Below, in pieces: positions 6,683 through 29,507 of a stretch of 57,891 bases of DNA. Origin of the DNA: Lachnospiraceae bacterium (GTDB lineage: Bacteria; Bacillota; Clostridia; Lachnospirales; Lachnospiraceae); NCBI GenBank assembly GCA_024696825.1, contig JAILGL010000136.1, forward strand, positions 1 to 57,891, given 5' to 3'. The translations under genes and the position numbers were made by a program. Below the pieces are notes generated by a model. It did no database searches. It was not told where the DNA came from and saw only the letters and a program-made list of their open reading frames with translations. The stretch's first letter is position 1. Every line of letters begins with the position of its first letter.

Positions 6683-6733
6683 CAGTAATTAAACTTTAAA
6701 AACTAAAAAATTAAATATAATTATAAAACTAAA

Positions 6734-6772
6734 AATAAGCCTTAATAATCACCACGATTATTAAGGCTTATT
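6734..6772. terminator. Bidirectional terminator between converging transcripts
   Basis: A perfect 17-bp stem (AATAAGCCTTAATAATC and its complement) has a 5-nt loop. It overlaps the last bases of the ANTAR gene on the minus strand and follows the acyltransferase gene on the plus strand, so it can end both transcripts. Confidence 0.85.
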
Positions 6773-11600: not shown

Positions 11601-11856
11601 TGGCATCAGGTCTTTCATATCTGCATATTCTTGCCATATATTCCAATGTAAGGGGCTCCATATAAACCTTATCTGCAATGGAATTATCTGTCATTATGGT
11701 GGCTGGATTAGAGTTTGCAAGGACTACCTCATAACCCTCTTCCTTAAGGGCTAAGCAGGCCTGTGTTCCTGCATAATCAAACTCTGCTGCCTGACCTATT
11801 ACAATGGGACCTGAACCTATAACCAATACCTTTTTAATATCTGTTCTCTTAGGCAT
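8632..11856 (-). CDS. carB: Carbamoyl phosphate synthase, large (ammonia-using synthetase) subunit
   Basis: This full-length 1074-residue subunit makes carbamoyl phosphate from bicarbonate, ATP and ammonia channelled from CarA, feeding pyrimidine and arginine synthesis. The two homologous ATP-grasp halves are visible. Half one begins IKKVLVIGSGPIVIGQAAEFDYAG; half two begins NKKIIVLGAGPIRIGQ near residue 545. Each carries ALGG-type glycine loops and an EVNPR metal/nucleotide motif (IEVNPRVSRSS and IEVNPRASRSV). An MGS-like allosteric domain fills about residues 935-1074. The start is preceded by TTGGAGG. It follows carA by 79 bp without a terminator. No frameshift or missing block is seen. 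Confidence 0.97.
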   Translation of the reverse strand: MPKRTDIKKVLVIGSGPIVIGQAAEFDYAGTQACLALKEEGYEVVLANSNPATIMTDNSIADKVYMEPLTLEYMARICRYERPDAIIPGIGGQTGLNLSLQLYDKGVLEECEIELLGTDAASIRRAEDREEFKELCEELNEPVVPSMITTSIEEGLEAAEKIGYPVILRPAFTLGGTGGGFSNNAEEMREMMKHALALSPVNQVLVEKSIKGYKEIEYEVIRDANDTAITVCNMENLDPVGIHTGDSIVVAPSQTLTNKEYHMLRDSALKIIRALKIKGGCNVQFALDPESFDYYVIEVNPRVSRSSALASKASGYPIARVSAKIAVGMNLDEIRLANTPACFEPSLDYVVTKMPRFPFDKFTLASNVLSTQMKATGETMSVGRTMEESLLKAIRSLEDGKNHIHLEKFDVKNLSNKPAPDNEKEAIEKLLKYIEEGTDDRIYAISELLWLGVDEQVIYNRTKIDMFFLDKIKNIVEFEKKIEERTKGTSLSKSLLYEAKKMGFSDSYIAELTNATEEDIYRLRKLHDIRPVYKMIDTCASEFESYVPYFYSTYEDENESIVSNNKKIIVLGAGPIRIGQGVEFDYSTVHAVRTIHEMGYEAIVINNNPETVSTDYTTADKLYFEPLTVEDIMNIVDLEKPLGIIATLGGQTAVNLVEPLEKRGVKIIGTESKAIFNAEDRDAFSHIIEDLNIPHPKGHAVTNIPDGIEVAKRTGYPVLVRPSYVLGGRAMEIVANEDMLVKYLTSAVEVDRDRPVLVDKYVVGKEVEVDAICDGKDAFLPGIMELVERTGVHSGDSTSVYPPYSLSDKVKDTIADYTKRLGLSIGIVGLYNIQFIVDKDENVYIIEVNPRASRSVPFLSKSIGLSLVDIATKVMLGESLEEQGYAGKILPEKDFWYVKAPAFSFEKLNGMDAYLSPEMKSTGEAIGYDKSLKRALYKALQASGIKMKEYGTVMVTLADEDKEEALPLVKRFYELGFNIEATQGTGTFLKKAGIRTRIRGKISEGSDEILNSIRAGYVSYIINTRAVLSGIHYKDGASIRRCAIMNGVTMFTSLDTVKILLDVLEDITPKISTI

Positions 11857-11935: not shown

Positions 11936-13012
11936 TTACTTTTTCATAAGTGCCGTAAACTGCTTAAATAAATATGTACTGTCACATGGACCCGGTGCAC
12001 TTTCAGGATGATACTGAACTGAAAGAATCTTTTCTTCCTCGTTATATAATCCTTCTACTGTCTGATCTAAAATATTTAAATGTGATATCCTAAGTCCTGT
12101 ATTTACGATGGAATTTTCATCCACCGCATAGCTGTGATTCTGACTGGTGATTTCCACCTTTCCTGTAAGTAAATTTTTAACAGGATGATTACCGCCTCTG
12201 TGTCCAAATTTAAGCTTATAGGTTGACGCTCCACATGAAAGTGCGATTAACTGATGGCCTAAGCATATTCCAAATATAGGACATTTTCCTCTTATTTCCT
12301 TTAAGGTTTCTATTACAGGTTTAACATCTGTAGGGTCTCCCGGTCCATTTGAAATAAATACTCCATCCGGCATCAGGGATAATATTTCCTCGCTGCTGGT
12401 GTTATATGGAACTATAGTCACGTTACATTTATTCTGATTTAACATTCTTACGATATTGGTCTTCATACCACAGTCAATTGCAACTACGTGATATAAGGGA
12501 TTGGTTGTACGGCTGTACCACTTTCTTTTACAGCTTACACGGTCAACCGCGTCATGTCTTATTTCAGTATCTCTTATCTTCCTAAGCCCCTGCTCCTTAG
12601 AGGTGTTCTCATCAGTTATAAGAACTCTTCTGGAACCGTAATCTCTAATGCTTCTTACCAGCTTTCTGGTGTCCACACCATAGATTCCTGCAACATCATT
12701 TTCCTCAAGTAAATCGTGCAATGTTCCTGTGGATCTGAAGTTTGAAGGACTGTCATTAATATCTCTCACAATAAGTGCCGATGGTGCGATTATCTTGCTC
12801 TCATAATCCTCATTGGTAATACCATAATTTCCAATAAGAGGATAAGACATAACCACCGCCTGATCGGTGTAGGAAGGATCTGAGACTATCTCCTGATATC
12901 CCACCATAGAGGTATTAAATACTATTTCACATACTACTTCCTTTTTACTTCCAAAGGAAAAACCGTAATACTCGCTCCCGTCCTCTAAAATAAGTTTTCT
13001 GTTATAAGTCAT
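11936..13012 (-). CDS. carA: Carbamoyl phosphate synthase, small (glutaminase) subunit
   Basis: The 358-residue subunit hydrolyses glutamine and passes ammonia to CarB. It has the N-terminal CPSase small domain (MTYNRKLILEDGSEYYG) and a class I glutamine amidotransferase domain from about residue 168. The nucleophile Cys is in FGICLGHQ and the His-Glu pair in YHPESAPGP. The upstream pyrG stop codon lies inside the ribosome site (TAAGGAGG), so the genes are tightly coupled. CarA and CarB being adjacent and in order supports one complex made from one message. Confidence 0.97.
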   Translation of the reverse strand: MTYNRKLILEDGSEYYGFSFGSKKEVVCEIVFNTSMVGYQEIVSDPSYTDQAVVMSYPLIGNYGITNEDYESKIIAPSALIVRDINDSPSNFRSTGTLHDLLEENDVAGIYGVDTRKLVRSIRDYGSRRVLITDENTSKEQGLRKIRDTEIRHDAVDRVSCKRKWYSRTTNPLYHVVAIDCGMKTNIVRMLNQNKCNVTIVPYNTSSEEILSLMPDGVFISNGPGDPTDVKPVIETLKEIRGKCPIFGICLGHQLIALSCGASTYKLKFGHRGGNHPVKNLLTGKVEITSQNHSYAVDENSIVNTGLRISHLNILDQTVEGLYNEEEKILSVQYHPESAPGPCDSTYLFKQFTALMKK

Positions 13013-13027
13013 GAATTAAAGGCCTCC

Positions 13028-14653
<1,626 letters not shown>

Positions 14654-14778
14654 TCATGAAACCTGCCTATTGTTTAAATGTTCTAAATACATGAAGTTGT
14701 TATATTTTGCTTATATTTTGCTTTTGTTTTTTCTATATTTTGCTTAAGTTTTTTAAATGTTTTTAATTGTTTATATGC

Positions 14779-16263
14779 TTATAAATTGGTATATCCTATA
14801 AGGTCTCTATCTACTTCCTTAGCTACCTCTCTACCCTCAGCTATAGCCCATACTACAAGTGACTGTCCTCTATGCATATCTCCTGCAACATAAACCTTAT
14901 CCTTAGAGGTATGATAAGAACCAAGACCTGTCTTAACATTAGTACGAGGATCTAAATCTACTCCAAAGCTGTCTGTTACATACTTTTCACTTCCCAAGAA
15001 ACCTGCTGCAATAAGTACTAAATCTGCAGGAACCTTCTTTTCAGAACCCTCTATAGGAACCATGTTAAGTCTTCCTGTTTTCTTATCAATCTGCTTATCA
15101 AGACTTACTGTAACAACCCCCTTAAGCACTCCCTTTTCGTCCTTTATAAATTCCTTTATGGTTGTGCAGTAAACTCTAGGGTCATCGCCAAATTTATAAA
15201 TAGCCTCTTCCTGACCATAGTCAGTTTTAAGGACTCTTGGCCACTCCGGCCATGGATTAGAAGCAAATCTTTCCTTTGGTGGCTGAGGCATCATTTCTAA
15301 CTGAGTAACCTTCTTGGCACCGAGTCTTATACAGGTTCCAACACAGTCATTTCCTGTATCTCCACCTCCGACTACGATTACCTTTTTACCCTTAACTCCC
15401 TTTGTTGGAAGCTTCTTAAAGTTAGAATCCAAAAGCTCTTTGGTAACCTCTCCTAAGAAATCTACCGCAAAGCGAATTCCCATAGCCTCTCTACCTGGAG
15501 CCTGTATATCTCTTGGCTTTGAAGCACCACAGGCTAAGATAATGCTGTCATACTGTTTAGTTAATTCTTCTGCTGAAATGTCTTTTCCAACATCAGTATT
15601 TACTACAAATTTAACTCCTGCCTTTTCCATAAGTCTGACTCTTCTGTCAATTACGGATTTATCTAATTTCATATTTGGAATACCATATCTTAAAAGACCA
15701 CCGACTCTGTCATGTCTTTCATATACAGTAACCTCATGACCTCTTCTGTTAAGGAGCTGAGCTGCTGCAAGTCCGGAAGGACCGCTACCTATAACCGCTA
15801 CCTTTTTATCGGTGCGAACCTGAGGAGCCTCCTCCTTTACATAGCCATTTTCAAATGCATATTCAATGATGGTTCTCTCATTTTCCTTAGTACAAACTGC
15901 CTCATCATTAAGTCCGCAGGTACATGCTGCCTCGCAAAGAGCAGGACATACTCTTCCTGTAAATTCAGGGAAGCTGTGAGTCATACTAAGTCTTTGATAT
16001 GCCTCTTCCATTTTTCCGCGATATACTAAATCATTTGTTTCAGGTACGAGATTGTGCAAAGGACAACCGGAAGCCATTCCTGAAATCATCATTCCTGCCT
16101 GGCAAAATGGAATTCCACAATCCATACATCTTGCAGCCTGCTTTTTCTGTTCCTCAAGTGGAAGGTTCTCATGAAATTCATAGAAATCCTTGATTCTCTC
16201 TTCTTCAGTTCTTACGTCGCCTTCCATACGCTCATATTCCAAAAATCCTGTTGTCTTTCCCAT
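14779..16263 (-). CDS. gltD: Glutamate synthase (NADPH), small subunit
   Basis: The 494-residue FAD/iron-sulfur subunit supplies electrons from NAD(P)H for GOGAT. The N-terminal cysteine-rich region (CMDCGIPFC near residue 46 and GRVCPALCEAACTCG near residue 103) binds two [4Fe-4S] clusters. The FAD motif is VAVIGSGPSGLAAAQLLNRRGH near residue 149 and the NADPH motif is VIVVGGGDTGNDC near residue 292. The start overlaps the gltB stop codon as TAATG, and its GGAGG site lies in the last gltB codons, so the two subunits are translationally coupled. Confidence 0.96.
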   Translation of the reverse strand: MGKTTGFLEYERMEGDVRTEEERIKDFYEFHENLPLEEQKKQAARCMDCGIPFCQAGMMISGMASGCPLHNLVPETNDLVYRGKMEEAYQRLSMTHSFPEFTGRVCPALCEAACTCGLNDEAVCTKENERTIIEYAFENGYVKEEAPQVRTDKKVAVIGSGPSGLAAAQLLNRRGHEVTVYERHDRVGGLLRYGIPNMKLDKSVIDRRVRLMEKAGVKFVVNTDVGKDISAEELTKQYDSIILACGASKPRDIQAPGREAMGIRFAVDFLGEVTKELLDSNFKKLPTKGVKGKKVIVVGGGDTGNDCVGTCIRLGAKKVTQLEMMPQPPKERFASNPWPEWPRVLKTDYGQEEAIYKFGDDPRVYCTTIKEFIKDEKGVLKGVVTVSLDKQIDKKTGRLNMVPIEGSEKKVPADLVLIAAGFLGSEKYVTDSFGVDLDPRTNVKTGLGSYHTSKDKVYVAGDMHRGQSLVVWAIAEGREVAKEVDRDLIGYTNL

Positions 16264-19200
16264 TACATACCTCCTACAAATGTTTTAAATGCTTCGATCT
16301 TTGCATTGTCAGGGTCAACACCTTTCTCTTCGCTCTTAGCGATAAGCTTTAACATCTCTTTGTAATCTGTCGGTATAATCTTCTTAAAATGTGGAAGATA
16401 TTCATCGAAGTTATCTAAGATTACCTGGCCCTTCTTAGAACCTGTATGCTCAACATGTTCTCCGATTATTTTCTTAAGCTCTTCCAAGTCATTTTTATTT
16501 TCAATGCTCTCCATACTTACAAGCTGCTTGTTTAGGTTTCTGTAAAGCTTGTTATCCTCATCCAGTACATATACAACTCCGCCGCTCATACCTGCTGCAA
16601 AGTTCTTTCCTGTACCTCCAAGAATAACTACCGTACCACCTGTCATATATTCACAACCATGCTCGCCAACGCCTTCAACTACTGCAATGGCACCTGAGTT
16701 TCTTATGGCAAATCTTTCACCTGCCATACCTGCTATAAATGCCTTTCCTGAAGTCGCACCGTAAAGAGCAACATTTCCTATAATAATATTTTCATCAGGA
16801 TCATAGCTTGCTTCCTTTGGAACCTTTACTGTAAGCTTACCACCGGACAAGCCCTTTCCAAAGTAATCGTTACTGTCTCCTTCTAAGCTAAGAGTAAGTC
16901 CCTTTGGAATAAATGCTCCAAAGCTCTGTCCTCCTGCTCCCTTACAATTAATTACTATAGTATCCTCTTTCAGTCCCTCCGGATGCTGTCTTGTAATCTC
17001 TGCACCAAGCAGTGTTCCGAAGGTTCTGTCTGTATTAGTAAGCTCTATATCCACCTCAGATGTCTTACCATCCTTTATGGATGCAAGAATATCCTTTCTT
17101 GCTAAAATAACCTTTTCATCCTTAGTATTTTCAAGCTTAAAGTCATATTTATTCTCAGGATTAAATGTGGAATCCTTTCTGTCTACATCAGACATATCTA
17201 TGAGAATTCTGTGAAGATCTAACTTACTCTGCTTATCATTTAAATCTTCCTTAACCTTAAGTAAATCAGTTCTACCAACTAATTCCTTCATGGAACGCAC
17301 ACCAAGCTTTGACATTAATTCTCTAAGCTCTTTTGCTATAAATATCATGAAGTTCTCAACATACTCAGGCTTACCCTTAAATCTCTTTCTAAGCTCAGGG
17401 TTCTGAGTTGCAACACCCATAGGGCAGGTATCTGACTGACAGGCTCTCATCATGGTACATCCCATGGTAATAAGTGGTGCTGTTGCAAAACCAAATTCCT
17501 CTGCTCCGAGGATGGCTGCTATAGCAACATCTCTACCACTCATAAGCTTACCGTCTGTCTCTATAACTACCTGATTTCTAAGGCCGTTAGCTACAAGTGT
17601 CTGATGTGTTTCTGCAAGTCCCATTTCCCAAGGAAGTCCTGCATTATGTATGGATGAAAGTGGAGCAGCACCTGTACCACCGTCATATCCTGATATAAGG
17701 ATTACCTCAGCTCCGGCCTTTGCAACACCGGATGCTACAGTACCAACACCTACCTCAGAAACAAGCTTAACTGAAATTCTTGCTTCTTTATTAGCATTTT
17801 TGAGGTCATATATAAGCTGTGCCAAATCCTCGATAGAATAAATGTCATGATGTGGTGGAGGTGATATAAGACTTACACCCGGAGTAGAATGTCTTGTTTT
17901 AGCTACCCAAGGATATACCTTTTTACCAGGAAGATGTCCACCCTCACCAGGCTTAGCACCCTGCGCCATCTTTATCTGAATCTCCTTGGCACTTACAAGA
18001 TATCTGCTGGTTACACCAAATCGACCACTGGCAACCTGCTTAATAGCTGAACTTCTGTCATTATCAGTTCCTGCTGATAAAATTCTTTCTTCGCTCTCTC
18101 CACCCTCACCGCTGTTTGACTTACCGTGAAGTCTGTTCATGGCTATTGCAAGGGTTTCATGAGCCTCCTCTGAGATAGAACCGTAGGACATGGCACCTGT
18201 TTTAAAATGCTTTACAATCTCCTCAACTCCTTCTACCTCATCTAATGGAATACTCTTTTCACTAAAGTTAAATTCCATCATATTTCTTAAGAAGCCCTGA
18301 TTTTCTTCATCCACCATCTGTGTATACTGCTTGAATTTATCGTAATCTCCCTCTCTTGTGGAGGCCTGCAGCATATGAATAGTACGTGGATTATATCTAT
18401 GCTTCTCACCCTGGGCTCTCATCTTATGTCTTCCCGTTGCGGTAAGCTCCATATTTACTGAAAGTCCAAGTGGATCAAATGCTTTGCTGTGCTGCTTATC
18501 TACAGCACGCTCTATATCCTCTAATGTAATTCCACCAACACGGCTTACAGTGCCGGTGAAATATTCATTTATAACCTCTTCTGAAATACCTATTGCCTCA
18601 AATATCTTACTTCCCTGATAAGACTGGATGGTTGAGATTCCCATTTTTGAAGCAATCTTTACGATACCAAAAAGAATGGCATCTGTGTAATCCTCAACTG
18701 CTGCATAGTAGTCCTTCTCAAGAAGCTCAGTCTTAACTAATTCCTTGATGGTTGCATGTGCAAGATATGGGTTAACTGCTGAAGCACCGTAACCTAAAAG
18801 TGTTGCAAAATGATGCACCTCTCTAGGCTCTCCTGATTCAAGAATAAGTGACATGGCTGTACTCTTTCTTGTATCTACCAAATGCTTATGCACTGCTGCA
18901 ACAGCAAGAAGTGATGGAATTGCCACATGATTCTCATCCACTCCCCTGTCGGATAATATAAGGATGTTAGCACCCTGTCTATAAGCTTTATCAACCTCTA
19001 CAAAGAGATGATTTAAGGCACGCTTTATAGATGTATTTTTATAATAAAGAGTTGAAACCTTAGCAACCTTAAAGCCATGACTTCCATTTAACTCCTCGAT
19101 TTTAAGTACATCCAAATCAGTTAAAATAGGATTGTTTATCTTAAGTACATGGCAGTTCTCAGGCTTCTCCTCCAAAAGATTTCCATTTTTTCCTACATAT

Positions 19201-20831
19201 ACAGTTCTTGAAGTTACGATTTCCTCACGCTGTGCATCAATTGGTGGGTTTGTAACCTGTGCAAAAAGCTGTTTGAAATAGTAGAATAATGGCTGATACT
19301 CTTCTGACAATGGAGCTATAGGAATGTCCACACCCATGGAACCTATTTTCTCAGAACCTGTAAGGGCCATGGAAAGAATTCCCTCATTGTAATTCTCCCA
19401 AGTATATCCAAATGCTTTCTGAATCTGCTTTAATCTGTCAGATGTAAATGAAGGCACCTTTCTGTTAGGAATCTTAAGCTCTGAAAGACTTAAAAGATTA
19501 CTGTCTAACCACTCACCAAACGGCTTGGCGCAGGCATATTTTTCCTTTATCTCATCATCATAAATAACTCTCTTCTGCTTTGTATCTACTAAAAGAATTT
19601 TTCCAGGATGAAGTCTTTCCTTCTTTACTACATGCTTCTCATCTAAGTCAAGTACACCGACCTCTGAAGAAAGAATAAGTCTGTTATCATCCATTACATA
19701 ATATCTTGAAGGTCTTAAACCATTTCTATCAAGAATTGCTCCCATTACATCTCCGTCTGAGAAAAGGATTGATGCAGGGCCGTCCCAAGGCTCCATCATG
19801 GTTGCATAATATTGATAGAAGTCTCTCTCTTCCATGGAAAGAGTTTCATTATGTGCCCATGGCTCAGGGATTGCAATCATTGCAGCAAGTGGTAAATCCA
19901 TACCGCTCATTACAAGGAATTCAAGGGTGTTATCAAGCATTGCTGAGTCAGATCCATTTTGAGAAATAACAGGAAGTACCTTTGTCATATCCTCCTCTGA
20001 AAATGTATCTGTATGCATGGTCTCTTCTCTTGCAAGCATCTTATCAGCATTTCCCTTAATGGTATTAATCTCACCATTATGTACCATAAATCTGTTAGGA
20101 TGTGCTCTGTTCCAACTTGGATTAGTATTAGTTGAGAAACGTGAATGCACCATGGCAATAGCTGACTCATAATCCGGATCCTTAAGATCTGTGAAGAAAA
20201 GTCTCAGCTGATTCACAAGGAACATTCCCTTATATACTATTGTTCTGCAGGATAATGAAGGCACATAAGTATCTGCACTACTCTGCTCAAATTCTCTTCT
20301 GACAATGTAAAGCTTTCTGTCAAAATCTATATCTTCCTTTAATTCCTTTGGTCTGTTTATAAATACCTGCTCTATATTTGGCATGCACTCTCTGGCCTTA
20401 TCTCCAAGTACCTCTTCTGCAGTATCTACCTTTCTCCAACCAAGAATTTTAAGTCCTTCTTTTCTAACAATTACTTCAAACATGGACTTTGCCTGTCTTC
20501 TTGCAAGCTCATCCTGTGGGAAGAAGAACATACCTACTCCGTATTTTCTTCTATCTGGTAACTCAACTCCCAACTTCTTCATCTTCTTTGCGAAGAATCT
20601 ATGTGGAATCTGAGTAAGAATTCCAACACCATCACCGGTCTTTCCTTCTGCATCCTTACCAGCTCTGTGTTCGAGATTTTCAACTATGGATAATGCATCG
20701 CGAACTAATTCATGACTTGCTCTGCCCTCAATATCAATAATGGCTCCAATACCGCAGTTATCGTGCTCAAAGGCAGGGTTATATAGTCCGTTTTTTTCAA
20801 TTTTCTTAAACATATCCTTAATTTTCTTCAT
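16263..20831 (-). CDS. gltB: Glutamate synthase (NADPH), large subunit
   Basis: This 1522-residue subunit converts glutamine plus 2-oxoglutarate into two glutamates. The start is placed 27 bp inside the longest frame, because AAGGAGG then lies 9 nt before it. Residues 1-25 form a propeptide whose removal would expose Cys26 (HDN|CGIG) as the N-terminal glutaminase nucleophile. A central domain follows, then the FMN/synthase domain (residues about 820-1190) with the 3Fe-4S cysteines in CTMMRACQSDTCPMG, and the C-terminal glycine-rich GXGXG beta-helix (about 1260-1450). It is the first gene after a promoter and an ANTAR-type leader, making it the clearest candidate target of the cluster's own regulator. 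Confidence 0.96.
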   Translation of the reverse strand: MKKIKDMFKKIEKNGLYNPAFEHDNCGIGAIIDIEGRASHELVRDALSIVENLEHRAGKDAEGKTGDGVGILTQIPHRFFAKKMKKLGVELPDRRKYGVGMFFFPQDELARRQAKSMFEVIVRKEGLKILGWRKVDTAEEVLGDKARECMPNIEQVFINRPKELKEDIDFDRKLYIVRREFEQSSADTYVPSLSCRTIVYKGMFLVNQLRLFFTDLKDPDYESAIAMVHSRFSTNTNPSWNRAHPNRFMVHNGEINTIKGNADKMLAREETMHTDTFSEEDMTKVLPVISQNGSDSAMLDNTLEFLVMSGMDLPLAAMIAIPEPWAHNETLSMEERDFYQYYATMMEPWDGPASILFSDGDVMGAILDRNGLRPSRYYVMDDNRLILSSEVGVLDLDEKHVVKKERLHPGKILLVDTKQKRVIYDDEIKEKYACAKPFGEWLDSNLLSLSELKIPNRKVPSFTSDRLKQIQKAFGYTWENYNEGILSMALTGSEKIGSMGVDIPIAPLSEEYQPLFYYFKQLFAQVTNPPIDAQREEIVTSRTVYVGKNGNLLEEKPENCHVLKINNPILTDLDVLKIEELNGSHGFKVAKVSTLYYKNTSIKRALNHLFVEVDKAYRQGANILILSDRGVDENHVAIPSLLAVAAVHKHLVDTRKSTAMSLILESGEPREVHHFATLLGYGASAVNPYLAHATIKELVKTELLEKDYYAAVEDYTDAILFGIVKIASKMGISTIQSYQGSKIFEAIGISEEVINEYFTGTVSRVGGITLEDIERAVDKQHSKAFDPLGLSVNMELTATGRHKMRAQGEKHRYNPRTIHMLQASTREGDYDKFKQYTQMVDEENQGFLRNMMEFNFSEKSIPLDEVEGVEEIVKHFKTGAMSYGSISEEAHETLAIAMNRLHGKSNSGEGGESEERILSAGTDNDRSSAIKQVASGRFGVTSRYLVSAKEIQIKMAQGAKPGEGGHLPGKKVYPWVAKTRHSTPGVSLISPPPHHDIYSIEDLAQLIYDLKNANKEARISVKLVSEVGVGTVASGVAKAGAEVILISGYDGGTGAAPLSSIHNAGLPWEMGLAETHQTLVANGLRNQVVIETDGKLMSGRDVAIAAILGAEEFGFATAPLITMGCTMMRACQSDTCPMGVATQNPELRKRFKGKPEYVENFMIFIAKELRELMSKLGVRSMKELVGRTDLLKVKEDLNDKQSKLDLHRILIDMSDVDRKDSTFNPENKYDFKLENTKDEKVILARKDILASIKDGKTSEVDIELTNTDRTFGTLLGAEITRQHPEGLKEDTIVINCKGAGGQSFGAFIPKGLTLSLEGDSNDYFGKGLSGGKLTVKVPKEASYDPDENIIIGNVALYGATSGKAFIAGMAGERFAIRNSGAIAVVEGVGEHGCEYMTGGTVVILGGTGKNFAAGMSGGVVYVLDEDNKLYRNLNKQLVSMESIENKNDLEELKKIIGEHVEHTGSKKGQVILDNFDEYLPHFKKIIPTDYKEMLKLIAKSEEKGVDPDNAKIEAFKTFVGGM

Positions 20832-20994
20832 CTCATTAGGCCTCCTTGTTTTTTTCATTCTCCACCTATTCTTGTTTTTAGCTACACATTGTTATTTTTA
20901 GTTTTTTTTAGATTTGTATTTATATTTATATTTGCATTTATATTTAAGCAATTTCAGGGGTCACATTTTTCCCTTCCATCCCCTTTAATTGCAT

Positions 20995-21037
20995 AAAAAA
21001 AAGGCACTTCAAGTATTTAAAATACTCGAAGCGCCTT
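20995..21037 (-). terminator. Leader terminator (attenuator) in front of gltB
   Basis: A stem of about 16 bp starting GGCGCUUCGAGUAUU, with two G-U pairs and a very small loop, is followed by eight U. It lies about 165 nt before the gltB start codon and inside its transcript. Its 5' arm is also the 3' arm and half the loop of hairpin P2, so the two structures exclude each other. This is the arrangement expected for regulated antitermination. Confidence 0.85.
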
Positions 21038-21093
21038 TGCTTCCAAAAAAATATAAATAAAAATAAAAGAAGTCGATGTCTCCTTTGACATCA
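21028..21093 (-). promoter_or_regulatory. ANTAR-binding dual hexaloop RNA motif in gltB leader
   Basis: On the minus-strand RNA, P1 is GAUGUC-AAAGGA-GACAUC (21093-21076) and P2 is GAAGC-AAAGGC-GCUUC (21043-21028). Both have 6-nt loops with A at position 1 and G at position 4, the known ANTAR recognition rule. A 32-nt A/U-rich linker joins them, longer than in most described examples. P1 begins at the predicted RNA 5' end. P2 shares its 3' arm with the downstream terminator. The ANTAR protein encoded at 6768-7349 is the natural partner. Confidence 0.85.
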
Positions 21094-21100
21094 CCTATCA

Positions 21101-21128
21101 TTTTACTTTGTGATAGGGGAGTTGTCAA
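21101..21128 (-). promoter_or_regulatory. gltB promoter with overlapping palindrome
   Basis: A perfect TTGACA (21123-21128) and TAAAAT (21101-21106) are separated by 16 bp. CCTATCA and TGATAGG arms (about 21095-21118) flank the -10 box with a 10-bp spacer and may be an operator. The predicted transcription start, near 21094, coincides with the foot of hairpin P1. Confidence 0.7.
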
Positions 21129-21275
21129 GAACTTTTTAGGGGAATTTAGCGAGAGCACGAATGGTGATAAGTGAAATATATGGCAACACTTATGATACTT
21201 GAAAGACTTGCTTGAGAAAGGTCGCCGCCGCATCCTTGAAACACTTGCTCGTGATGTGTACAAAGCGCGCAATAC

Positions 21276-21547
21276 GCGCTTAAAAGGCTGCAAACTTGAA
21301 CAACTTGCTCGTGATGTGTACTCGCTTCAGGCTGCGGATTTTCTACCACAGTTGCACGCGCTTATTCGTCGCCATATCACTTGCAAACTCGTGTAAGTAA
21401 GGTGATGGGTTAAGTGGAGGCAGTGTTCACTCGGACAGCAAGTTAAGCGATGGCGACTGCTAGCGTGCAACTGTGCTGACGAAAATGCACGCAAAGCCAT
21501 TCCGCTTCGTACACACATCGAGCGGCGTTGTTGAGCAAGTTAAGCGT
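21276..21547 (+). repeat. Left arm of a ~270-bp imperfect inverted repeat
   Basis: This block matches, in reverse complement, the block at 22974-23243. Long identical runs include the GCGGATTTTCTACCACAGTTG, GTCGCCATATCACTTGC and CGCAAAGCCATTCCGCTTCG regions. A short divergent patch lies at about 21405-21425. A further partial copy of its beginning lies just outside (21233-21261). The block is less AT-rich than the surrounding intergenic DNA. No gene is supported here. Confidence 0.85.
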
Positions 21548-21808
21548 GCGGCTCCTGCGAATTCGCCGTAGGCGAATTTGTGTTCAGGCGCTAACGAAAA
21601 TACACGCAAAGCCTTTTCGCTTCATAAGCGCATTTAATGCGCTTCACACACACTGAGCGGCGTTGTTGGACAAGCTAAGCGTGAGGCTCCTGCGAATTCG
21701 ACGTAGGCGAATTTGTGTTCAGGCGCTAACGAAAATGCACGCAAAGCCTTTTCGCTTCATAAGCGCATTTAATGCGCTTTATACACTATCGATCGGCGTT
21801 GTTTGGCA
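21541..21808 (+). repeat. Two 135-bp direct repeats with internal hairpins
   Basis: Copies begin at 21541 and 21676, exactly 135 bp apart, and are nearly identical. Each carries a small AATTCGCC/GGCGAATT-type hairpin and an AAGCGCAT/ATGCGCTT hairpin. A shorter 97-bp relative at 21444 lacks both hairpins, and a diverged relative lies at 22905-22975 on the other strand with a different hairpin. The hairpins therefore look like modules gained or lost within a common unit. Confidence 0.8.
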
Positions 21809-21865
21809 AGCGAAGCATACGGCGACTTACTTTATCGATTGAGTCGAGGTTATGTATAAGTGTTA

Positions 21866-22850
21866 GGCATCGGAATTGTGAGTTATCGCAGTGATCGATG
21901 CTCACCTAATTTCCCCGGCATCGGAAAAGTAAGTAATCGTGAAAATCGATGCTCACCTTAATCCGGTAGGCATCGGGATAGCAAGTTTTGGCAATAATCG
22001 ATGCTCGGCTTAATCCGGTAGGCATCGGGATAGCAAGTAATCGTGAAAATCGATGCTCACCTAAATCCGCCGGGCATCGGAAAAGTAAGTAATCGTGATA
22101 ATCGATGCTCACCTAAATCCGCCGGGCATCGGAATAGTAAGTAATCGTGAAAATCGATGCTCACCTAAATCCGGTAGGCATCGGGATAGCAAGTTTTGGC
22201 AATAATCGATGCTCGGCTTAATCCGGTAGGCATCGGAAAAGCAAGTTTTGGCGATAATCGATGCTCGCCTAAATCCGGTAGGCATCGGAAAAGCAAGTTT
22301 TGGCGATAATCGATGCTCACCTTAATCCGGTAGGCATCGGGATAGAAAGTTTTGGCAATAATCGATGCTCGCCTTAATCCGGTAGGCATCGGAAAAGCAA
22401 GTAATCGTGATAATCGATGCTCACCTTAATCCGGTGGGCATCGGAATAGCAAGTTTTGGCAATAATCGATGCTCGCCTAAATCCGGTAGGCATCGGAATT
22501 GTAAGTAATCGTGAAAATCGATGCTCGGCTTAATCCGGTAGGCATCGGGATAGCAAGTTTTGGCAATAATCGATGCTCGGCTTAATCCGGTAGGCATCGG
22601 AAAAGTAAGTAATCGTGAAAATCGATGCTCGCCTAAATCCGCCGGGCATCGGAATAGTAAGTAATCGTGAAAATCGATGCTCACCTTAATCCGGTAGGCA
22701 TCGGAAAAGTAAGTAATCGTGAAAATCGATGCTCACCTTAATCCGGTAGGCATCGGAAAAGCAAGTTTTGGCGATAATCGATGCTCACTCAAAATTACCG
22801 GGCATCGGGATAGCAAGTAATCGTGATAATCGATGCTCACCTAGGGTGCT
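21866..22850. repeat. Array of 18 tandem 52-bp mosaic repeats
   Basis: Units start with ATCGATGCTC at 21894 and recur every 52 bp (the first is 51) up to a truncated copy at 22829. Each unit has two constant words, ATCGATGCTC and GGCATCGG, whose CGATGC/GCATCG cores can pair as hairpins within or between units. Three positions vary among a few alternatives: the middle (for example ACCTTAATCCGGTAG or ACCTAAATCCGCCGG), a GATAGC/AAAAGT-type word, and a tail that is either TAATCGTGA-A/T-A or TTTTGGC-A/G-ATA. The alternatives are shuffled between units. Since 52 is not a multiple of 3, the apparent short frames across the array are artefacts. Confidence 0.9.
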
Positions 22851-22973
22851 TTGTTTGTAGCCGCCGGTGCTTAGCAAACACGAAGCTAAATAAGTGCAGC
22901 ACAGTGAGGCTTTGCGCAAATTTTCATCAGCGCTGTTGTACATATTCTCCTTCGGAGAATTTGCAGTCGCAAT

Positions 22974-23243
22974 CGTTTAACTTGCTCAACAACGCCGCTC
23001 GATGTGTGTACGAAGCGGAATGGCTTTGCGTGCATTTTCGTCAGCGCAGTTGTAGGCTAGCAGTCGCCATCGTTTAACTTGCTGTCCGAGTGAGCATTGT
23101 CTTGACTTGTCAAGAACCTGGCTTACACGAGTTTGCAAGTGATATGGCGACGGATAAGCGCCTACAACTGTGGTAGAAAATCCGCAGCCTGAAGCGAGTA
23201 CACACATCGAGCAAGTTGTTCAAGTTTGTAGCCTCACAAGCGC
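22974..23243 (-). repeat. Right arm of the ~270-bp imperfect inverted repeat
   Basis: Reverse complement of 21276-21547. Together with the left arm it brackets the 52-bp array and the 135-bp repeats in a roughly 2-kb unit. Weaker similarity continues inward to about 22905. An internal CTTGAC-TT-GTCAAG palindrome (23101-23114) sits where the two arms differ. Confidence 0.85.
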
Positions 23244-23273
23244 ATCTTATTAGCGAGTGTTCATAACAACTGC

Positions 23274-23310
23274 AAAAAAACAGGGACGCGAGATTAATCT
23301 CGCATCCCTG
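23274..23310 (-). terminator. Terminator downstream of purF
   Basis: The minus strand reads CAGGGATGCGAGATT followed by its complement (one G-U pair) and seven T. It is about 225 nt after the purF stop codon, so the purF message would have a long 3' tail. Confidence 0.85.
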
Positions 23311-23535
23311 CTCTCTGGACAATGAGAAGTTGGTTTGTCCTACTCCATTCGTAGCTTAAAACACACTGGACACTATGTTTTAAGCCCGGCAAAACTAGAG
23401 GTTTATGTGATTTGTGTTAACCCTTTAAACAGTTAATACTTTAAGCAATTGTGTGTTATGGAAGGTTTGCTTTATAAGTTACTACTATGGGCTAACACTT
23501 TACGGAGTTGTTATGTATGTCGGTTTTACGATTCT
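23311..23535 (-). other. Structured 3' tail of purF or small RNA
   Basis: No coding frame is supported. On the minus strand there are two further hairpins before the terminator: GCTTAAAACA/TGTTTTAAGC, and GGACAA/TTGTCC. This spacing of hairpins could be a stable 3' UTR or a separate small RNA. No convincing internal promoter was found and no known RNA family was recognised. Confidence 0.35.
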
Positions 23536-24921
23536 TTACACCGGATAGTTGTTGTCGAAGCAGGCTGAGCAAATGGATAGGTCTCCGACCATGGCCTTGA
23601 AGTCCTTGGTGTCAAGGTATACTAAGGAATCTGCCCCTATGTTTTTGCAAACTTCTTCGGCTGAATGTTCAGATGCTATTAGCTGTCCGCTGCTTGGTAC
23701 ATCGGTGCCATAGAAACATGGATATAAGAAAGGTGGGGAGCTGATTCTTACATGTACTTCTTTGGCTCCTTCTTTCTTAAGCATTTCTATTATCTTTTTC
23801 ATAGTGGTTCCACGTACTATGGAGTCGTCTATTATAACTATTCTTTTATCTTTAACCACACTCTTTAATACGCTAAGCTTCATAATTACTGCATTTTTTC
23901 TTTCCTCATCTGTAGGTTTTATGAAGCTTCTGCCAATGTAGCTGTTTTTATGAAATGCAAGTGCAAAAGGAATGCCTGATTCTTTTGCATAGCCCTCTGC
24001 TGCCACAAGTCCCGAATCCGGAACTCCTACAACTACGTCAGCCTCAACGTGAGAAGATCGGGCAAGAGCTTGTCCTGCCCGAAATCTCGCTTCATGTACT
24101 TCGATTCCATCAATGATAGAATCACTTCTTGCAAAATATATATACTCAAATATGCAATGTGCACATTTAAGACCACAAAGGGTCTCGTCACTATATATTC
24201 CTTCCTCTGTGATTACTATTTCTTCGCCAGGTTTTATGTCTCTTATTAATTCTCCGCCAACTGCGGTTATAGCAGAACTCTCAGAAGCCAGAATATATTT
24301 ATCCTGCTTTTTTCCAAGTACCAGAGGTTTGATTCCATATGGATCTCTGATACCCACAAGCTTTTTAGGACTCATGACAAGACAGGCATATCCACCCTTC
24401 ATCTTTTTCGCTGCATTTATTACTGCCTCTTCGATGGATTGGGTTTTTACTCTCTCACTAACTATTTCATAGGCTATAACCTCTGTATCAGTGGTGGTGT
24501 AATGAGCCTGCCCACGATACATTTGAAGCTCTTTTATTTTCTGGGCATTTATGATATTACCATTATGCACCAAAGATAGACTCCCCTTAATATACTTCAT
24601 CGATATAGGTTGAGCATTTTCTGGAATACTTTCACCTGTAGTCGAATATCTTACATGACCAACACCGATATTTCCTTTGAGCTCTTTCAAATCGCTTTTG
24701 CTAAAAACCTCACCTACAAGTCCCATGCCTTTTTTTGTCGTAAGATTTCCCATATAGCTATCGGTATCTGACACTGACATTCCTGCTGATTCCTGACCTC
24801 TGTGCTGTAAAGCAACCAGACCATAATATATGTCGTTTGATACATTTTCACCAGCAGGTGCATATACTCCAAACACTCCACATTCTTCGTGGAGCTTATC
24901 CGACTCGAAATAGTCAGTCAT
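23536..24921 (-). CDS. purF: Amidophosphoribosyltransferase (glutamine PRPP amidotransferase)
   Basis: The 461-residue enzyme catalyses the first step of purine synthesis, PRPP plus glutamine to phosphoribosylamine. A 13-residue propeptide ending in HEE precedes Cys14 (ECGVFGVY), the future N-terminal nucleophile. Glutaminase residues are intact: HRGQESAG, VRYSTTG, HNGN and TTTDTEV. The PRPP loop is IVIIDDSIVRGTTM near residue 362. Cysteines at CAHC, PCFYG and CSAC fit the Bacillus-type [4Fe-4S] enzyme. A CGGAGG site lies before the start. It stands apart from the other pur genes, inside the glutamine cluster. Confidence 0.96.
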   Translation of the reverse strand: MTDYFESDKLHEECGVFGVYAPAGENVSNDIYYGLVALQHRGQESAGMSVSDTDSYMGNLTTKKGMGLVGEVFSKSDLKELKGNIGVGHVRYSTTGESIPENAQPISMKYIKGSLSLVHNGNIINAQKIKELQMYRGQAHYTTTDTEVIAYEIVSERVKTQSIEEAVINAAKKMKGGYACLVMSPKKLVGIRDPYGIKPLVLGKKQDKYILASESSAITAVGGELIRDIKPGEEIVITEEGIYSDETLCGLKCAHCIFEYIYFARSDSIIDGIEVHEARFRAGQALARSSHVEADVVVGVPDSGLVAAEGYAKESGIPFALAFHKNSYIGRSFIKPTDEERKNAVIMKLSVLKSVVKDKRIVIIDDSIVRGTTMKKIIEMLKKEGAKEVHVRISSPPFLYPCFYGTDVPSSGQLIASEHSAEEVCKNIGADSLVYLDTKDFKAMVGDLSICSACFDNNYPV

Positions 24922-25308
24922 TTTTAGTCCTCCGTTGTATAATTAATTTTTAGGTTTTTTAAATTCTTCTTTTATTTTTATTTATATTTTTTGACTATTA
25001 ATATGACTATTTTTTTCTAATTTGACTACTTTTATTTTTTGATTTTTTCTTTTATTTTTATTGTTTTATTTACTTAAAAATCCACCCTGTTATACGCTTT
25101 TCACTTCTTTTATTTTTTTCCCTATTATACGCTTTGTTTTACCTAATATATTTACTCAAAAATTTTACTTATACTTACTTTTAATCCATTGACATAATGT
25201 TTTCTTACTGTTTTTTTTAGCATTTTTATAGCATTTTTATAGCATTTTTTTAGCTTTTTTATAGCTTTTTCATTAGCATTTTCTTATTAGTTTTTTAGCT
25301 TTTAAAGA
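24922..25308 (-). other. AT-rich purF leader / intergenic region
   Basis: No gene is seen. The minus strand is strongly purine- and A-rich. It contains three ATAAAAATGCT-like direct repeats (about 25215-25260), two GCGTATAA(T/C)AGGG repeats (the first holds a perfect TATAAT), and three TAGTCA words nearer to purF. The -35 element is not clear, and no terminator after amt could be found, so purF may be read from its own promoter or from glnN-amt. Confidence 0.45.
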
Positions 25309-27078
25309 TTACTCAACATCCTGAAGTGCTTCGAAATCTTCCTCGCCGGTTCTAATCTTAACTACGCGGCTAACTGGATATACGAAGATCTTACCGTCAC
25401 CAATCTTACCGGTGTAAAGAGTTTTCTTGGCTGTTTCGATTACTGCATCTACTGGGATTTCACTTACTACTACTTCAAGCTTAATCTTAGGAAGTAAGGT
25501 AACGTCCATCTCAACTCCACGGTACATCTGACCACTACCCTTCTGCATACCACAACCTGTTACCTGAGTTACGGTTACACCGGTGATACCTAATTCATTA
25601 AGGGCTTTCTTAAGTCTGTCGTATCTTGAAAGCTTTGTGATGATTACTACCTTGTTCATTCCTGTGTCAAGGCTTGTTCCCTTAACTGCCTGAGTCATGT
25701 CATGTACAGGAACTGCAGCCTTTCTCTTAGCTTCGCTGGCAGCCTCGTAGCTATCTTCGCCGAGATGAGTATTTTCATTTTCATCCATTGTACCGCTACT
25801 CATATCTACGATTGAGAAACCAGCATATGCTGAAGTAAGACCATGCTCTTTCTCGTCAAGACCTTCGATTTCTTCTTCTTCAGAAACTCTTAAACCAAAG
25901 ATTAATTTGATGATAGCAAATACAATTACCATGGTTACTGTTGTCCAAGCTGCTACTGCAAGAACTCCGATTGCCTGAACTCCTAAAAGATGGAAGCCAC
26001 CGCCATAGAAAAGACCCTGAAGAGTGTCATTTCCTGGTGCTGTTTTTGTTGCGAAAAGACCAGTTGCGAGTGTACCCCACACACCGTTCATCATATGTAC
26101 TGCAACTGCACCGACTGGATCGTCAATGTGAAGTACGTAATCTAAGAACCAAACACCGAAGCATACTAAAAGTCCTGCAACTGCACCGATTATAATAGCA
26201 CCTGTGGCGTCTGTAACATCACAAGGAGCTGTGATTGCTACAAGACCTGCAAGAGATGCGTTTAAACACATTGAAACGTCAGGCTTACCATACTTAATCC
26301 ATGTAAATATCATACATACTACTGTTGCTACTGAAGGAGCGATTGTAGTTGTTACAAATACTGATGCAAGCTGATCTGATGATGTACAAGCTGCACCGTT
26401 GAAACCATACCATCCAAGCCAAAGGATGAATACACCTAAGGCACCGATAACGATATTATGACCAGGGAAAGCATTTACCTTAGTTACCTTACCGGATTTA
26501 TCTCTTTTAAACTTACCGATACGAGCACCAACCATCTTGGCACCAACTAAAGCTGCGATTCCACCAACCATGTGAATTGCACATGATCCTGCAAAATCAT
26601 GGAATCCCATCTCTGCAAGCCAGCCGCCGCCCCAGATCCAATGTGCCTCAATTGGGTATATTAAACCTGATATAACACCAGAATATACACAGTAGCTTAA
26701 GAACTTAGTTCTTTCTGCCATGGCACCTGATACTATAGTAGCTGTGGTAGCACAGAAAACAAGGTTGAATACGAAGTTTGACCAATCAAACTTTGCATAA
26801 TCTGTAATAATATCAAAACCTGGTTTTCCGATGAAACCTAACATGTCTTCACCAAGGAGTAAACTAAATCCAATGATGATAAACATTACACAACCGATAC
26901 AAAAGTCCATGAGATTCTTCATAAGAATGTTACCTGCATTCTTAGCTCTTGAAAAACCTGTCTCAACCATTGCAAATCCTGCCTGCATCCAAAATACAAG
27001 CGCTGCACCAATAAGGAACCATACGGAGAACACTTCTCCGCTTATCGCATTCATAATTTCTTCTGTCATATCCGTCAC
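25309..27078 (-). CDS. Ammonium transporter fused to a PII signalling domain (Amt-GlnK)
   Basis: The protein has 589 residues. Residues 1 to about 415 are an Amt channel with eleven hydrophobic segments and family words such as GFAMVETGFSRAKNAGNIL, ATIVSGAMAERTKF and DDPVGAVAVHMMNGVWG. After an acidic, charged linker, a complete PII domain begins at MNKVVIITKL (about residue 475). It has a T-loop around GMQKGSGQMYRGVE and the ATP-binding TGKIGDGKIFVYP and RTGE motifs. Where GlnB has the uridylylated Tyr51 this domain has Met, so that modification is excluded; control by ATP/ADP/2-oxoglutarate binding is the likely alternative. Fusion puts the gate on the channel itself. It follows glnN by 88 bp with no terminator between, suggesting one operon. 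Confidence 0.92.
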   Translation of the reverse strand: MTDMTEEIMNAISGEVFSVWFLIGAALVFWMQAGFAMVETGFSRAKNAGNILMKNLMDFCIGCVMFIIIGFSLLLGEDMLGFIGKPGFDIITDYAKFDWSNFVFNLVFCATTATIVSGAMAERTKFLSYCVYSGVISGLIYPIEAHWIWGGGWLAEMGFHDFAGSCAIHMVGGIAALVGAKMVGARIGKFKRDKSGKVTKVNAFPGHNIVIGALGVFILWLGWYGFNGAACTSSDQLASVFVTTTIAPSVATVVCMIFTWIKYGKPDVSMCLNASLAGLVAITAPCDVTDATGAIIIGAVAGLLVCFGVWFLDYVLHIDDPVGAVAVHMMNGVWGTLATGLFATKTAPGNDTLQGLFYGGGFHLLGVQAIGVLAVAAWTTVTMVIVFAIIKLIFGLRVSEEEEIEGLDEKEHGLTSAYAGFSIVDMSSGTMDENENTHLGEDSYEAASEAKRKAAVPVHDMTQAVKGTSLDTGMNKVVIITKLSRYDRLKKALNELGITGVTVTQVTGCGMQKGSGQMYRGVEMDVTLLPKIKLEVVVSEIPVDAVIETAKKTLYTGKIGDGKIFVYPVSRVVKIRTGEEDFEALQDVE

Positions 27079-27166
27079 CCTTCCTTTTCTTATAATTTTT
27101 ATTTATATTTTTTTCTAAAAACTCTTATAATTTTTTCCATTTATGTCCCATAATCTAGCTTTTTTA

Positions 27167-29266
27167 TTAATATACTGAGAATAAAAGCTTTCCATAGCTT
27201 GGGAATGGCCAGCACTCCTCTGGTGAAAGCATTTCTGCCTCATCAACATATTTTCTTAAGTCTTCCATTGAAGGAAGTACCTTATCTCTGGTGAACTCTG
27301 AGGTTTCGATGATAGTATCAAAATCATCAACCTTAGAAAGTACATCCTCGAGAACTTCAACCTTTTCTAAGATGTAATCTGTAAGCTCTGAAAGTCTTTC
27401 CATAGTTGAAAGCTCGTAGTTACATTTAACCTTGTCACTTACTGACTTCATAAGTGAAATAGTTCCTGCAACTCTGTTTAAATAACCCTCGATTGCTGGA
27501 AGGTAATTCTTTCTAACCATGTCAACCATTGTAAGTCCTTCGATATTAATAGTCTTACAATAATTCTCAAGCATGATCTCACATCTTGAATTAAGCTCTG
27601 TCTCTGTAAATACCTTGTGAGACATAAGCATTTTCTTATTCTTCTCATCTAAGAGATGTGGCATTGCATCAGCTGTAGTTCTAAGATTTGAAAGGCCTCT
27701 AACCTCTGTTGCCTCCTTAATCCACTCTTCGCCGTATCCGTTACCGTTGAACAAGATTCTCTCATGCTTAACAATTACTTCCTTGATAAGATCATGAAGC
27801 TCTGCCTCGAAATCCTCTGCCTTTTCAAGTCTGTCAGCATACTGCTCAAGACTTTCTGCAACTGCTGCATTTAACATGATATTACAGCATGCAATGCTGT
27901 TTGAAGAACCAAGAGATCTGAACTCGAACTTGTTACCTGTAAATGCAAATGGTGAAGTACGGTTTCTATCAGTTGTATCTCTTGAGAATCTTGGTAATGA
28001 ATGAACACCAAGCTTCATAACAACCTTCTCATGCTCCTCATATGGCTTATCATTCTTGATTGCATCAAGGATTGCTGTTAACTCATCTCCAAGGAATACT
28101 GAAATGATTGCAGGGGGTGCTTCGTTAGCTCCAAGTCTGTGATCATTTCCTGCTGTTGCAGCTGAGAGACGAAGAAGATCCTGATAATCATCAACTGCCT
28201 GAATTACACCACAAAGGAATAAAATGAACTGTGCATTCTCAGATGGTGTATCACCAGGTGAAAGAAGATTCACACCTGTGTCAGTAGCCATGGACCAGTT
28301 GTTATGCTTACCTGAACCATTAACGCCTGCAAATGGTTTCTCATGAAGTAAGCAAACCATGTCATGCTTTCTTGCTACCTTTTGCATAATCTCCATGGTG
28401 AGCTGATTGTTATCAGTTGCCACGTTGGTAGTTGAGAAGATAGGAGCAAGCTCATGCTGTGCAGGTGCAACCTCGTTATGCTCAGTCTTTGCGAGAATTC
28501 CAAGCTTCCAAAGCTCGTTATTTAAATCCTCCATGAAGGCTGTTACTCTTGGCTTGATTACACCAAAGTAATGATCATCTAACTCCTGTCCCTTTGGAGC
28601 TCGTGCTCCGAAAAGAGTTCTTCCTGTATATACTAAGTCAGGCCTTTTTTCAAACATTTCCTTGTCTACAAGGAAGTATTCCTGCTCAGGTCCAACGCTT
28701 GTTCTAACATATTTAACTTCTTTACCGAAAAGTTTTAAGATTCTCTTTGCCTGGCGGTTAAGAGCTTGCATAGAACGAAGGAGTGGAGTCTTTTTATCAA
28801 GTGCATCTCCTGAGTAAGAGCAGAACGCTGTTGGGATGCAAAGTGTGTGATCCTTGATAAATGCATATGAGGTTGGGTCCCATGCTGTATAACCTCTAGC
28901 CTCAAATGTTGCTCTAAGTCCTCCGGAAGGAAATGAAGAAGCATCAGGTTCACCTTTAATAAGTTCTTTACCTGAGAATTCCATAAGTACTCCGCCATCA
29001 GGTGAAGGTGAAATGAAGCTGTCATGCTTTTCTGCAGTTACACCTGTAAGAGGTTGAAACCAATGTGTGTAATGAGTAGCTCCATTTTCAACTGCCCAGT
29101 CACGCATTTGAGTAGCAACTGCCTCGGCTACATCCTCTTCAAGTTTTACGTTTTCATCAATGGTTCTTTTAAGTGATTGATAAACCTTGTCTGAAAGACG
29201 AGCTTTCATAACTTTGTCACTGAAAACTTTTGAACCAAACATTTCAGGAACATTTTGCTTATTCAT
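27167..29266 (-). CDS. glnN: Glutamine synthetase type III
   Basis: The 699-residue enzyme joins ammonia to glutamate using ATP. Length and the family signatures are diagnostic of [40 protein letters not shown], and [19 protein letters not shown] near residue 320. The start is placed at MNKQN, 5 nt after AAAGAGG; the frame runs upstream to a TTG, but that codon lies inside an inverted repeat and has no ribosome site. Since the GlnA-like protein of this cluster lacks the usual ammonia-site residues, GlnN is probably the main assimilatory synthetase. It has its own promoter and an attenuator-type leader, and is likely co-transcribed with amt. Confidence 0.96.
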
Positions 29267-29281
29267 ATTTACCTCTTTTCT

Positions 29282-29323
29282 GCGTCGCAAAAAGTTTTTC
29301 TACCGGTCTATGTCAAGCGACGC
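29282..29323 (-). promoter_or_regulatory. GCGTCGC/GCGACGC inverted repeat before the glnN ribosome site
   Basis: A 7-bp GC-rich inverted repeat (29282-29288 and 29317-29323) ends about 4 nt before the AAAGAGG ribosome site. In RNA it would form a hairpin with a 28-nt loop next to the initiation region. It is the only GC-rich word in this leader. A function is not known. Confidence 0.4.
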
Positions 29324-29400: not shown

Positions 29401-29472
29401 TCATAAAGGCTTAAAAACACGCAAAAAAGAGCGCCCAGAGATTGTATCTCTAAGACGCCCTTGCCTTTATGA
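29401..29472 (-). terminator. glnN leader attenuator with one ANTAR-like hexaloop
   Basis: The minus-strand leader starts, about 5 nt after the predicted RNA 5' end, with hairpin AAGGC-AAGGGC-GUCUU (29467-29452); its 6-nt loop has A1 and G4. The loop's GGGC and the 3' arm are also the 5' arm of a terminator (29460-29429) followed by six U (29428-29423). In addition TCATAAAGGC and GCCTTTATGA, a perfect 10-bp inverted repeat, enclose the whole terminator (29463-29472 with 29401-29410). That helix would open the hexaloop hairpin. No second hexaloop hairpin fits between promoter and P2. Confidence 0.65.
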
Positions 29473-29478
29473 TAAACA

Positions 29479-29507
29479 ATAATAATTCCTATCCAAAAAA
29501 ATGTCAA
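29479..29507 (-). promoter_or_regulatory. glnN promoter
   Basis: TTGACA (29502-29507) and TATTAT (29479-29484) are separated by 17 bp, close to the sigma-A consensus. The predicted start near 29472 places the attenuator at the very beginning of the transcript. Confidence 0.75.

Follow-up and report, generated by a model that had tools for sequence, protein, structure and literature searches.

The glutamate synthase gene gltB of a Lachnospiraceae bacterium is preceded by a leader that raises two questions: is it a transcription antitermination switch worked by an ANTAR protein, and does such a switch need two hexaloop hairpins at a fixed spacing? The leader lies on a stretch of 57,891 nt (contig JAILGL010000136.1, positions 1-57,891), which is called the window here. 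The loop determinants of ANTAR sites, A in position 1 and G in position 4 (A1/G4), come from mutagenesis of EutV targets (PMC3369931), and a hexaloop signature was obtained for NasR by SELEX (PMC7496416). We find that the gltB leader is very probably an ANTAR-controlled transcription antitermination switch. It appears to be a known mechanism in a new variant architecture, and we infer its function from its sequence and from that of its relatives.

Anatomy of the gltB leader

The gltB operon has a predicted promoter of the sigma-A type on the minus strand (21100-21128), recognised by its match to the consensus. Its -35 box TTGACA (21128-21123) and -10 box TAAAAT (21105-21100) are separated by a 17-nt spacer; the promoter has 11 of the 12 consensus bases and ranks first among 39 promoter-like sites in 14.8 kb. 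Hairpin P1 (GATGTC-AAAGGA-GACATC, minus strand, 21075-21092) starts 7 nt past the -10 box, that is, at the predicted 5' end of the RNA, and its 6-bp stem can be extended to 7 bp. An A/U-rich linker on the same strand (21044-21074) leads to hairpin P2 (GAAGC-AAAGGC-GCTTC, minus strand, 21028-21043), which has a 5-bp stem and is the predicted antiterminator. Both loops, AAAGGA and AAAGGC, carry A1 and G4, and both are closed by the C:G pair of the NasR SELEX signature. The intrinsic terminator (minus strand, 20995-21038), recognised by folding and by sequence, consists of an 18-bp stem (21038-21000) and a U tract. Its 5' arm is made of the P2 loop and the P2 3' arm, so P2 and the terminator are mutually exclusive. 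The leader thus has the features of the dual-hexaloop motif (Ramesh 2012): a pair of hairpins with stems of 3 bp or more and 6-nt loops, and an overlap between P2 and an exclusive terminator. All the parts named in the preliminary description, the promoter, P1, P2 and a terminator sharing the P2 3' arm, are present on the minus strand. The linker is indeed longer than in described motifs, which have 5-12 nt in eut leaders (PMC3369931) and 2-25 nt in an actinobacterial curation (PMC8164766), and it falls outside both ranges; its length is 31 nt (21074-21044) and not 32 nt as had been given.

When the growing chain was folded, P1 and P2 formed first and the terminator displaced P2 once the terminator 3' arm had emerged. 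The predicted energies are -14.3 kcal/mol with P1 and P2 and -34.5 kcal/mol with the terminator, and the leader folds 7 SD better than shuffled sequences. Dinucleotide shuffling of the 5' segment produced a 6-bp, C:G-closed A1/G4 hexaloop hairpin in 4 of 20,000 trials. The composite of P1, P2 and terminator occurs once in the window and was found in none of 30 whole-strand shuffles. In an Rfam scan of the window, the leader matched no family at the gathering threshold, and at a relaxed threshold all matches fell far under the gathering scores of their families. The sole window match at the gathering threshold is a 6S RNA (RF00013, 76.4 bits) at 53549-53727 on the minus strand. The region between the gltB promoter and purF contains 135-bp repeats (21511-21780) and about 20 head-to-tail copies of a 52-bp repeat (21865-22944).

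The operon and its ANTAR protein

The genes on the minus strand downstream of the leader are, in order, gltB for the large subunit of glutamate synthase (16263-20858, likely start 20834 or 20858), a gltD-like gene for the small subunit (14779-16263), three genes named by reading their sequence, namely a pyrG-like gene for CTP synthase (13028-14638) and carA-like (11936-13012) and carB-like (8632-11856) genes for the small and large chains of carbamoyl-phosphate synthase, a glnA-like glutamine synthetase gene (7365-8540), and the gene of an ANTAR regulator (6768-7349). A strong terminator directly 3' of the ANTAR gene (6732-6774, minus strand) is the predicted end of the operon. This terminator and that of the leader are the only strong ones on the minus strand between 21.3 and 6.5 kb, so the ANTAR gene is probably the last gene of the switch-controlled transcript. 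The genome has no other ANTAR gene, and the position of this one at the end of the gltB cluster, noted in the preliminary description, fits a place in the same operon.

The encoded protein has a pseudo-receiver, a coiled coil and an ANTAR domain (138-189), the arrangement of the EutV type. Its predicted structure (mean pLDDT 93.5) contains five strands interleaved with helices, one long helix and the helices of the ANTAR domain. Where EutV has its phospho-acceptor Asp54, the protein has Asn58. No Asp occurs at this position in the 61 aligned family proteins, which mostly have Gly, Asn or Ser there; one mis-framed ANTAR row, L301, is ignored. Control by a phosphorelay was dropped as a candidate, since the receiver lacks its phospho-acceptor. 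The EutV residues that contact RNA include Lys149, Glu160, Tyr164 and Arg142 (PMC8934654). Essentially all of the 61 family members retain Lys149 and Glu160. At the Tyr164 position most have His, which AmiR has too, whereas Arg142 is not conserved. In the window protein Arg142 is replaced by Leu and Tyr164 by His, substitutions that count against the explanation we favour below.

Conservation of the leader in relatives

Leaders of gltB were drawn from 114 genomes of the family and from 80 named loci. In the first leader set, 25 of 115 leaders contained an A1/G4 hexaloop hairpin overlapping a terminator, compared with 0-1 in shuffles; scanning yielded 48 distinct gltB leaders of this kind. When the loop letters were left unconstrained, 35 of the 46 hexaloop/terminator overlaps in gltB leaders were A1/G4 and 41 had a closing C:G pair. 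Ten shuffle sets gave six such overlaps in total, none of them A1/G4.

The P2 stem covaries, with 67 double-change cells against 23.5 expected, a figure matched in 0 of 500 shuffles. The scanner demands a stem and thereby inflates the covariation of P2. We therefore ran a selection-free test, in which sites were picked solely by the pattern AANGRNG at the base of a terminator. A stem of at least 4 bp was present in 40 of 50 unique sites (permutation mean 12.7, maximum 23), and 46 of the 50 sites had the closing C:G pair. The terminator helix likewise covaries in relatives, and across the seven leaders that have a P1, double changes occur in 4 of its 6 pairs. Covariation in homologous leaders was among the checks proposed in the preliminary description; P1 and P2 both covary, and the finding survives.

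A strict scan, which required a terminator and two hexaloop hairpins with stems of 4 bp or more, returned only the window and one other genome (G005) among the 115 leaders. This was initially read as absence of the switch from the relatives. That reading was overturned, because the scan fails there for want of P1 and not for want of the switch. A search of the genome with a short consensus pattern gave more than 1000 matches and was of no use.

Co-occurrence with ANTAR genes

A covariance model of P2 and the terminator, R1, was searched with a cut-off of E <=0.001. Across 150 genera of the family, 133 genomes have an ANTAR gene and 99 of these contain the R1 element; the other 17 have no ANTAR gene, and none of them contains it (Fisher p = 1.4e-9; this p-value and the next are optimistic, because the genomes share ancestry). 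Since gltB, too, is missing from most of the ANTAR-less genomes, genomes without gltB were compared apart. Here the element was found in 10 of the 16 that have an ANTAR gene and in none of the 14 that have none (p = 3e-4). Class-wide, it is present in 31 of 100 genomes with an ANTAR gene and in 2 of 96 without; at the loci fetched from both of these exceptions the hexaloop core is absent. Anatomy, the covariation of P1 and P2, the ANTAR gene at the operon end and this co-occurrence all support the earlier reading of the gltB leader as a putative dual-hexaloop ANTAR site.

Other elements of the genome and family

R1 identified three elements in the genome itself: the gltB leader, the leader of glnN and a site on contig C71. 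The second element, which goes beyond the preliminary description, lies within the window, also on the minus strand, and has a single hexaloop. Its predicted promoter (29479-29507) combines TTGACA (29507-29502), a 17-nt spacer and TATTAT (29484-29479). The hairpin AAGGC-AAGGGC-GTCTT (29452-29467; R1 match 29467-29424) follows 11 nt past the -10 box, with no P1, and a terminator (29421-29462) overlaps it. Downstream on the minus strand are glnN for a type III glutamine synthetase (27167-29290, likely start 29266; a GSIII-type N terminus is recognised in homologues) and a gene for a fusion of an ammonium transporter with a P-II regulator domain (25309-27078). The third element (L235, C71 439-486, minus strand, 44.9 bits) precedes a gene of the Peptidase_C26 (glutamine amidotransferase-like) type; about 26 nt upstream is a hairpin whose hexaloop, ATTAAT, has A1 and no G4. 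Weak R1 matches on C36, C38, C16 and others lack a hexaloop core and were set aside as ordinary terminators.

In relatives the element precedes gltB, glnN, glnA, purF, carA, asnB, pyrG and amt. Several further loci were observed. Contig C5 of genome G001 has five element matches within 15.5 kb (12502-28015), one of them at the gltB leader, and these are putative repeated attenuators along one gene cluster. Element matches also lie upstream of a NifB-like radical SAM gene (L344, genome G236) and of a circularly permuted ATP-grasp-like gene (L281, genome G151), both genes identified by eye. At L139 (genome G095), a hexaloop/terminator on the opposite strand, GAGC-AAAGGC-GTTC, was seen by eye about 200-250 nt upstream of gltB. 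It faces a divergent ANTAR gene, which suggests direct autoregulation of ANTAR there.

One hairpin or two

In most relatives, the leaders of gltB, glnN, purF, carA, asnB and amt have one hexaloop, placed at the predicted 5' end of the RNA. Among the relatives with a single-hexaloop gltB leader is the cultured Pseudobutyrivibrio xylanivorans DSM 14809 (L184). The hexaloop hairpin lies 4-14 nt past a -10 box in 26 of the 48 gltB leaders (23 with a strong promoter), a spacing that 1.5% of random positions match. A hairpin so close to the -10 box leaves no room for a P1 in the RNA. Similarly, the hairpin is 7-11 nt past the -10 box in 21 of 29 classified element loci from the genome scan, the window glnN leader included. 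The second hairpin of the published dual motif is lacking both from the glnN element of the window and from relatives' leaders with one hexaloop; these elements would work like that motif without belonging to it.

A P1 was found in the gltB leaders of the window, its congener G151, G005, L155, L158, L161 and L167 only, and all seven fall within one 25-row clade of the GltB tree (support 97/84). Their linkers measure 31 (window), 8, 28, 28, 28, 65 and 33 nt. The 'complete' dual switch of the preliminary description therefore stands for gltB in the window and fails as a rule for the family, since P1 is missing from most homologous leaders. At L154, L263, L275 and L345, one gene is preceded by a tandem pair of complete elements, each with a hexaloop and a terminator. 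A classical dual site with a short linker exists elsewhere in the class, in an amt leader (L363, linker 2 nt).

The search model of Ramesh 2012 permitted a variable linker (PMC3369931). In experiments with EutV, a 14-nt linker strongly cut induction in vivo (PMC3369931) and a linker lengthened by 20 nt abolished antitermination in vitro (PMC8934654). The 31-nt linker of the window exceeds the length that EutV tolerates, which also counts against our preferred explanation. Walshe 2022 concluded that a dimer engages just one hexaloop at any time, and asked whether single-hexaloop sites are used (PMC8934654). NasR binds a single P2 weakly, at about 12 uM (PMC7496416). It seems reasonably likely that the pseudo-receiver ANTAR proteins of Lachnospiraceae and wider Clostridia antiterminate from a single hexaloop at the RNA 5' end and control a regulon of glutamine metabolism, and that the dual form with its flexible linkers of 8-65 nt is a lineage-specific elaboration.

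Discussion

In the proposed mechanism, transcription of the gltB operon would start just upstream of P1. ANTAR dimers would bind the emerging P2 hexaloop, recognising A1, G4 and the closing C:G pair, and hold P2 in place, leading to read-through. Without active ANTAR protein, the far more stable terminator would form. Because the operon that the ANTAR protein would control ends with the gene of that protein, the circuit should be self-amplifying, with the ANTAR gene autoregulated via the gltB operon. The same protein would act on the single-hexaloop leader of glnN and amt. ANTAR proteins of this family would work on one hexaloop, and P1 would recruit the protein independently, without forming a rigid unit with P2. 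The signal may be glutamine or nitrogen shortage, conveyed through protein contact rather than phosphorylation, since the receiver has lost its Asp. With no phospho-acceptor, the likeliest route would be contact with a partner, like that between AmiC and AmiR. The receiver-like domain of AmiR is established to function without phosphotransfer. AmiR differs in that no AmiC-type partner was identified for the window protein. The neighbouring glutamine synthetase and the P-II domain are candidate signal partners.

The main rival to this explanation agrees that the ANTAR switch consists of P2 and the terminator and holds that P1 is idle, either a 5'-end hairpin that stabilises the transcript or a decaying relic. 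It would account for the absence of P1 from most homologous leaders, for a linker far above the EutV limit and ranging from 8 to 65 nt among relatives, and for the P1 loop of the congener G151 (GATGCA), which has lost A1. However, the A1/G4 loop and the closing C:G pair of P1 are kept in 6 of 7 leaders despite compensatory changes in the stem, and P1 always sits at the RNA 5' end, the very place of the single hexaloop in other species. We consider an idle P1 unlikely. The opposite view, a rigid eut-like dual site in which P1 and P2 act as one unit because the A/U linker folds up or a further factor spans it, draws on the linkers of 28-33 nt in five of the seven leaders with P1 and on weak pairing of the linker ends in the terminated fold. 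Such a unit is improbable, given that linker sequences are unrelated between species, that two of the lengths lie well away at 8 and 65 nt, and that predictions yield no stable linker structure. The linker was also dropped as a conserved third element, being A/U-rich, unrelated in sequence and variable in length.

That the element is operated by something other than an ANTAR protein, be it another RNA-binding protein or a ligand-binding RNA, deserves mention because the link between ANTAR protein and RNA is indirect here and the single-hexaloop form lies outside the published dual motif. We give it very little credence: the loop and closing pair fit the ANTAR SELEX signature (PMC7496416), the element occurs in none of the 17 ANTAR-less genomes and persists without gltB where an ANTAR gene is present, and the hairpin, which has no Rfam match at the gathering threshold, is too small for a known type of aptamer. 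An ordinary constitutive attenuator or terminator with hexaloops by chance would fit the strength of the terminator alone (-23.9 kcal/mol), but it is contradicted by the shuffle, covariation and co-occurrence tests and is almost certainly wrong.

Our preferred explanation, antitermination from one hexaloop with P1 as an additional recruiting site, can be compared with known systems. The gltB leader resembles the eut leaders controlled by EutV in Enterococcus faecalis (Ramesh 2012, PMC3369931; Walshe 2022, PMC8934654) in its two A1/G4 hexaloop hairpins, the overlap of P2 with an intrinsic terminator, the receiver-ANTAR protein and the nitrogen-related targets. It differs in its linker (31 nt, compared with 5-12 nt in eut), in targets that belong to glutamine metabolism, in a receiver without the phospho-acceptor Asp, and in having many homologous sites in Lachnospiraceae with one hexaloop only. 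AmiR of Pseudomonas and NasR of Klebsiella share the ANTAR fold and the RNA signature, and AmiR also shares the His at the Tyr164 position. NasR, in contrast, senses nitrate through a NIT domain.

Nitrogen-metabolism regulons of ANTAR proteins are already described in the main text of PMC3369931. There, the regulons predicted for Desulfotomaculum reducens and D. acetoxidans likewise comprise leaders of glutamate synthase, glutamine synthetase, P-II and ammonium transporter genes, with several sites per genome; they differ from ours in having been predicted with a two-hairpin model. That main text includes neither a single-hexaloop class nor the glutamine amidotransferases purF, carA, asnB and pyrG as targets, although the supplementary tables may list some of these leaders. 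As PMC6316151 cites Stutz 2007, NitR of Clostridium saccharobutylicum is an ANTAR protein encoded in a GS/GOGAT cluster, and it induces the GS/GOGAT genes by antitermination under nitrogen limitation. The window cluster differs in containing pyrG and carAB in addition; the comparison with NitR covers the genes and their induction.

If our explanation is correct, the requirement of EutV for two hairpins at a fixed spacing would not be general. The structural work on EutV left the question of whether single-hexaloop ANTAR sites are real and active, and why the spacing is so tight (PMC8934654). A common family of the gut and rumen provides dozens of natural single-hexaloop leaders along with dual leaders that have long linkers, and in one genome the two types occur together with a single ANTAR protein, so that the question can be tested directly. 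For a major gut family in which nitrogen regulation has received little study, our results suggest that one ANTAR protein coordinates ammonium uptake, the GS/GOGAT pathway and several enzymes that use glutamine.
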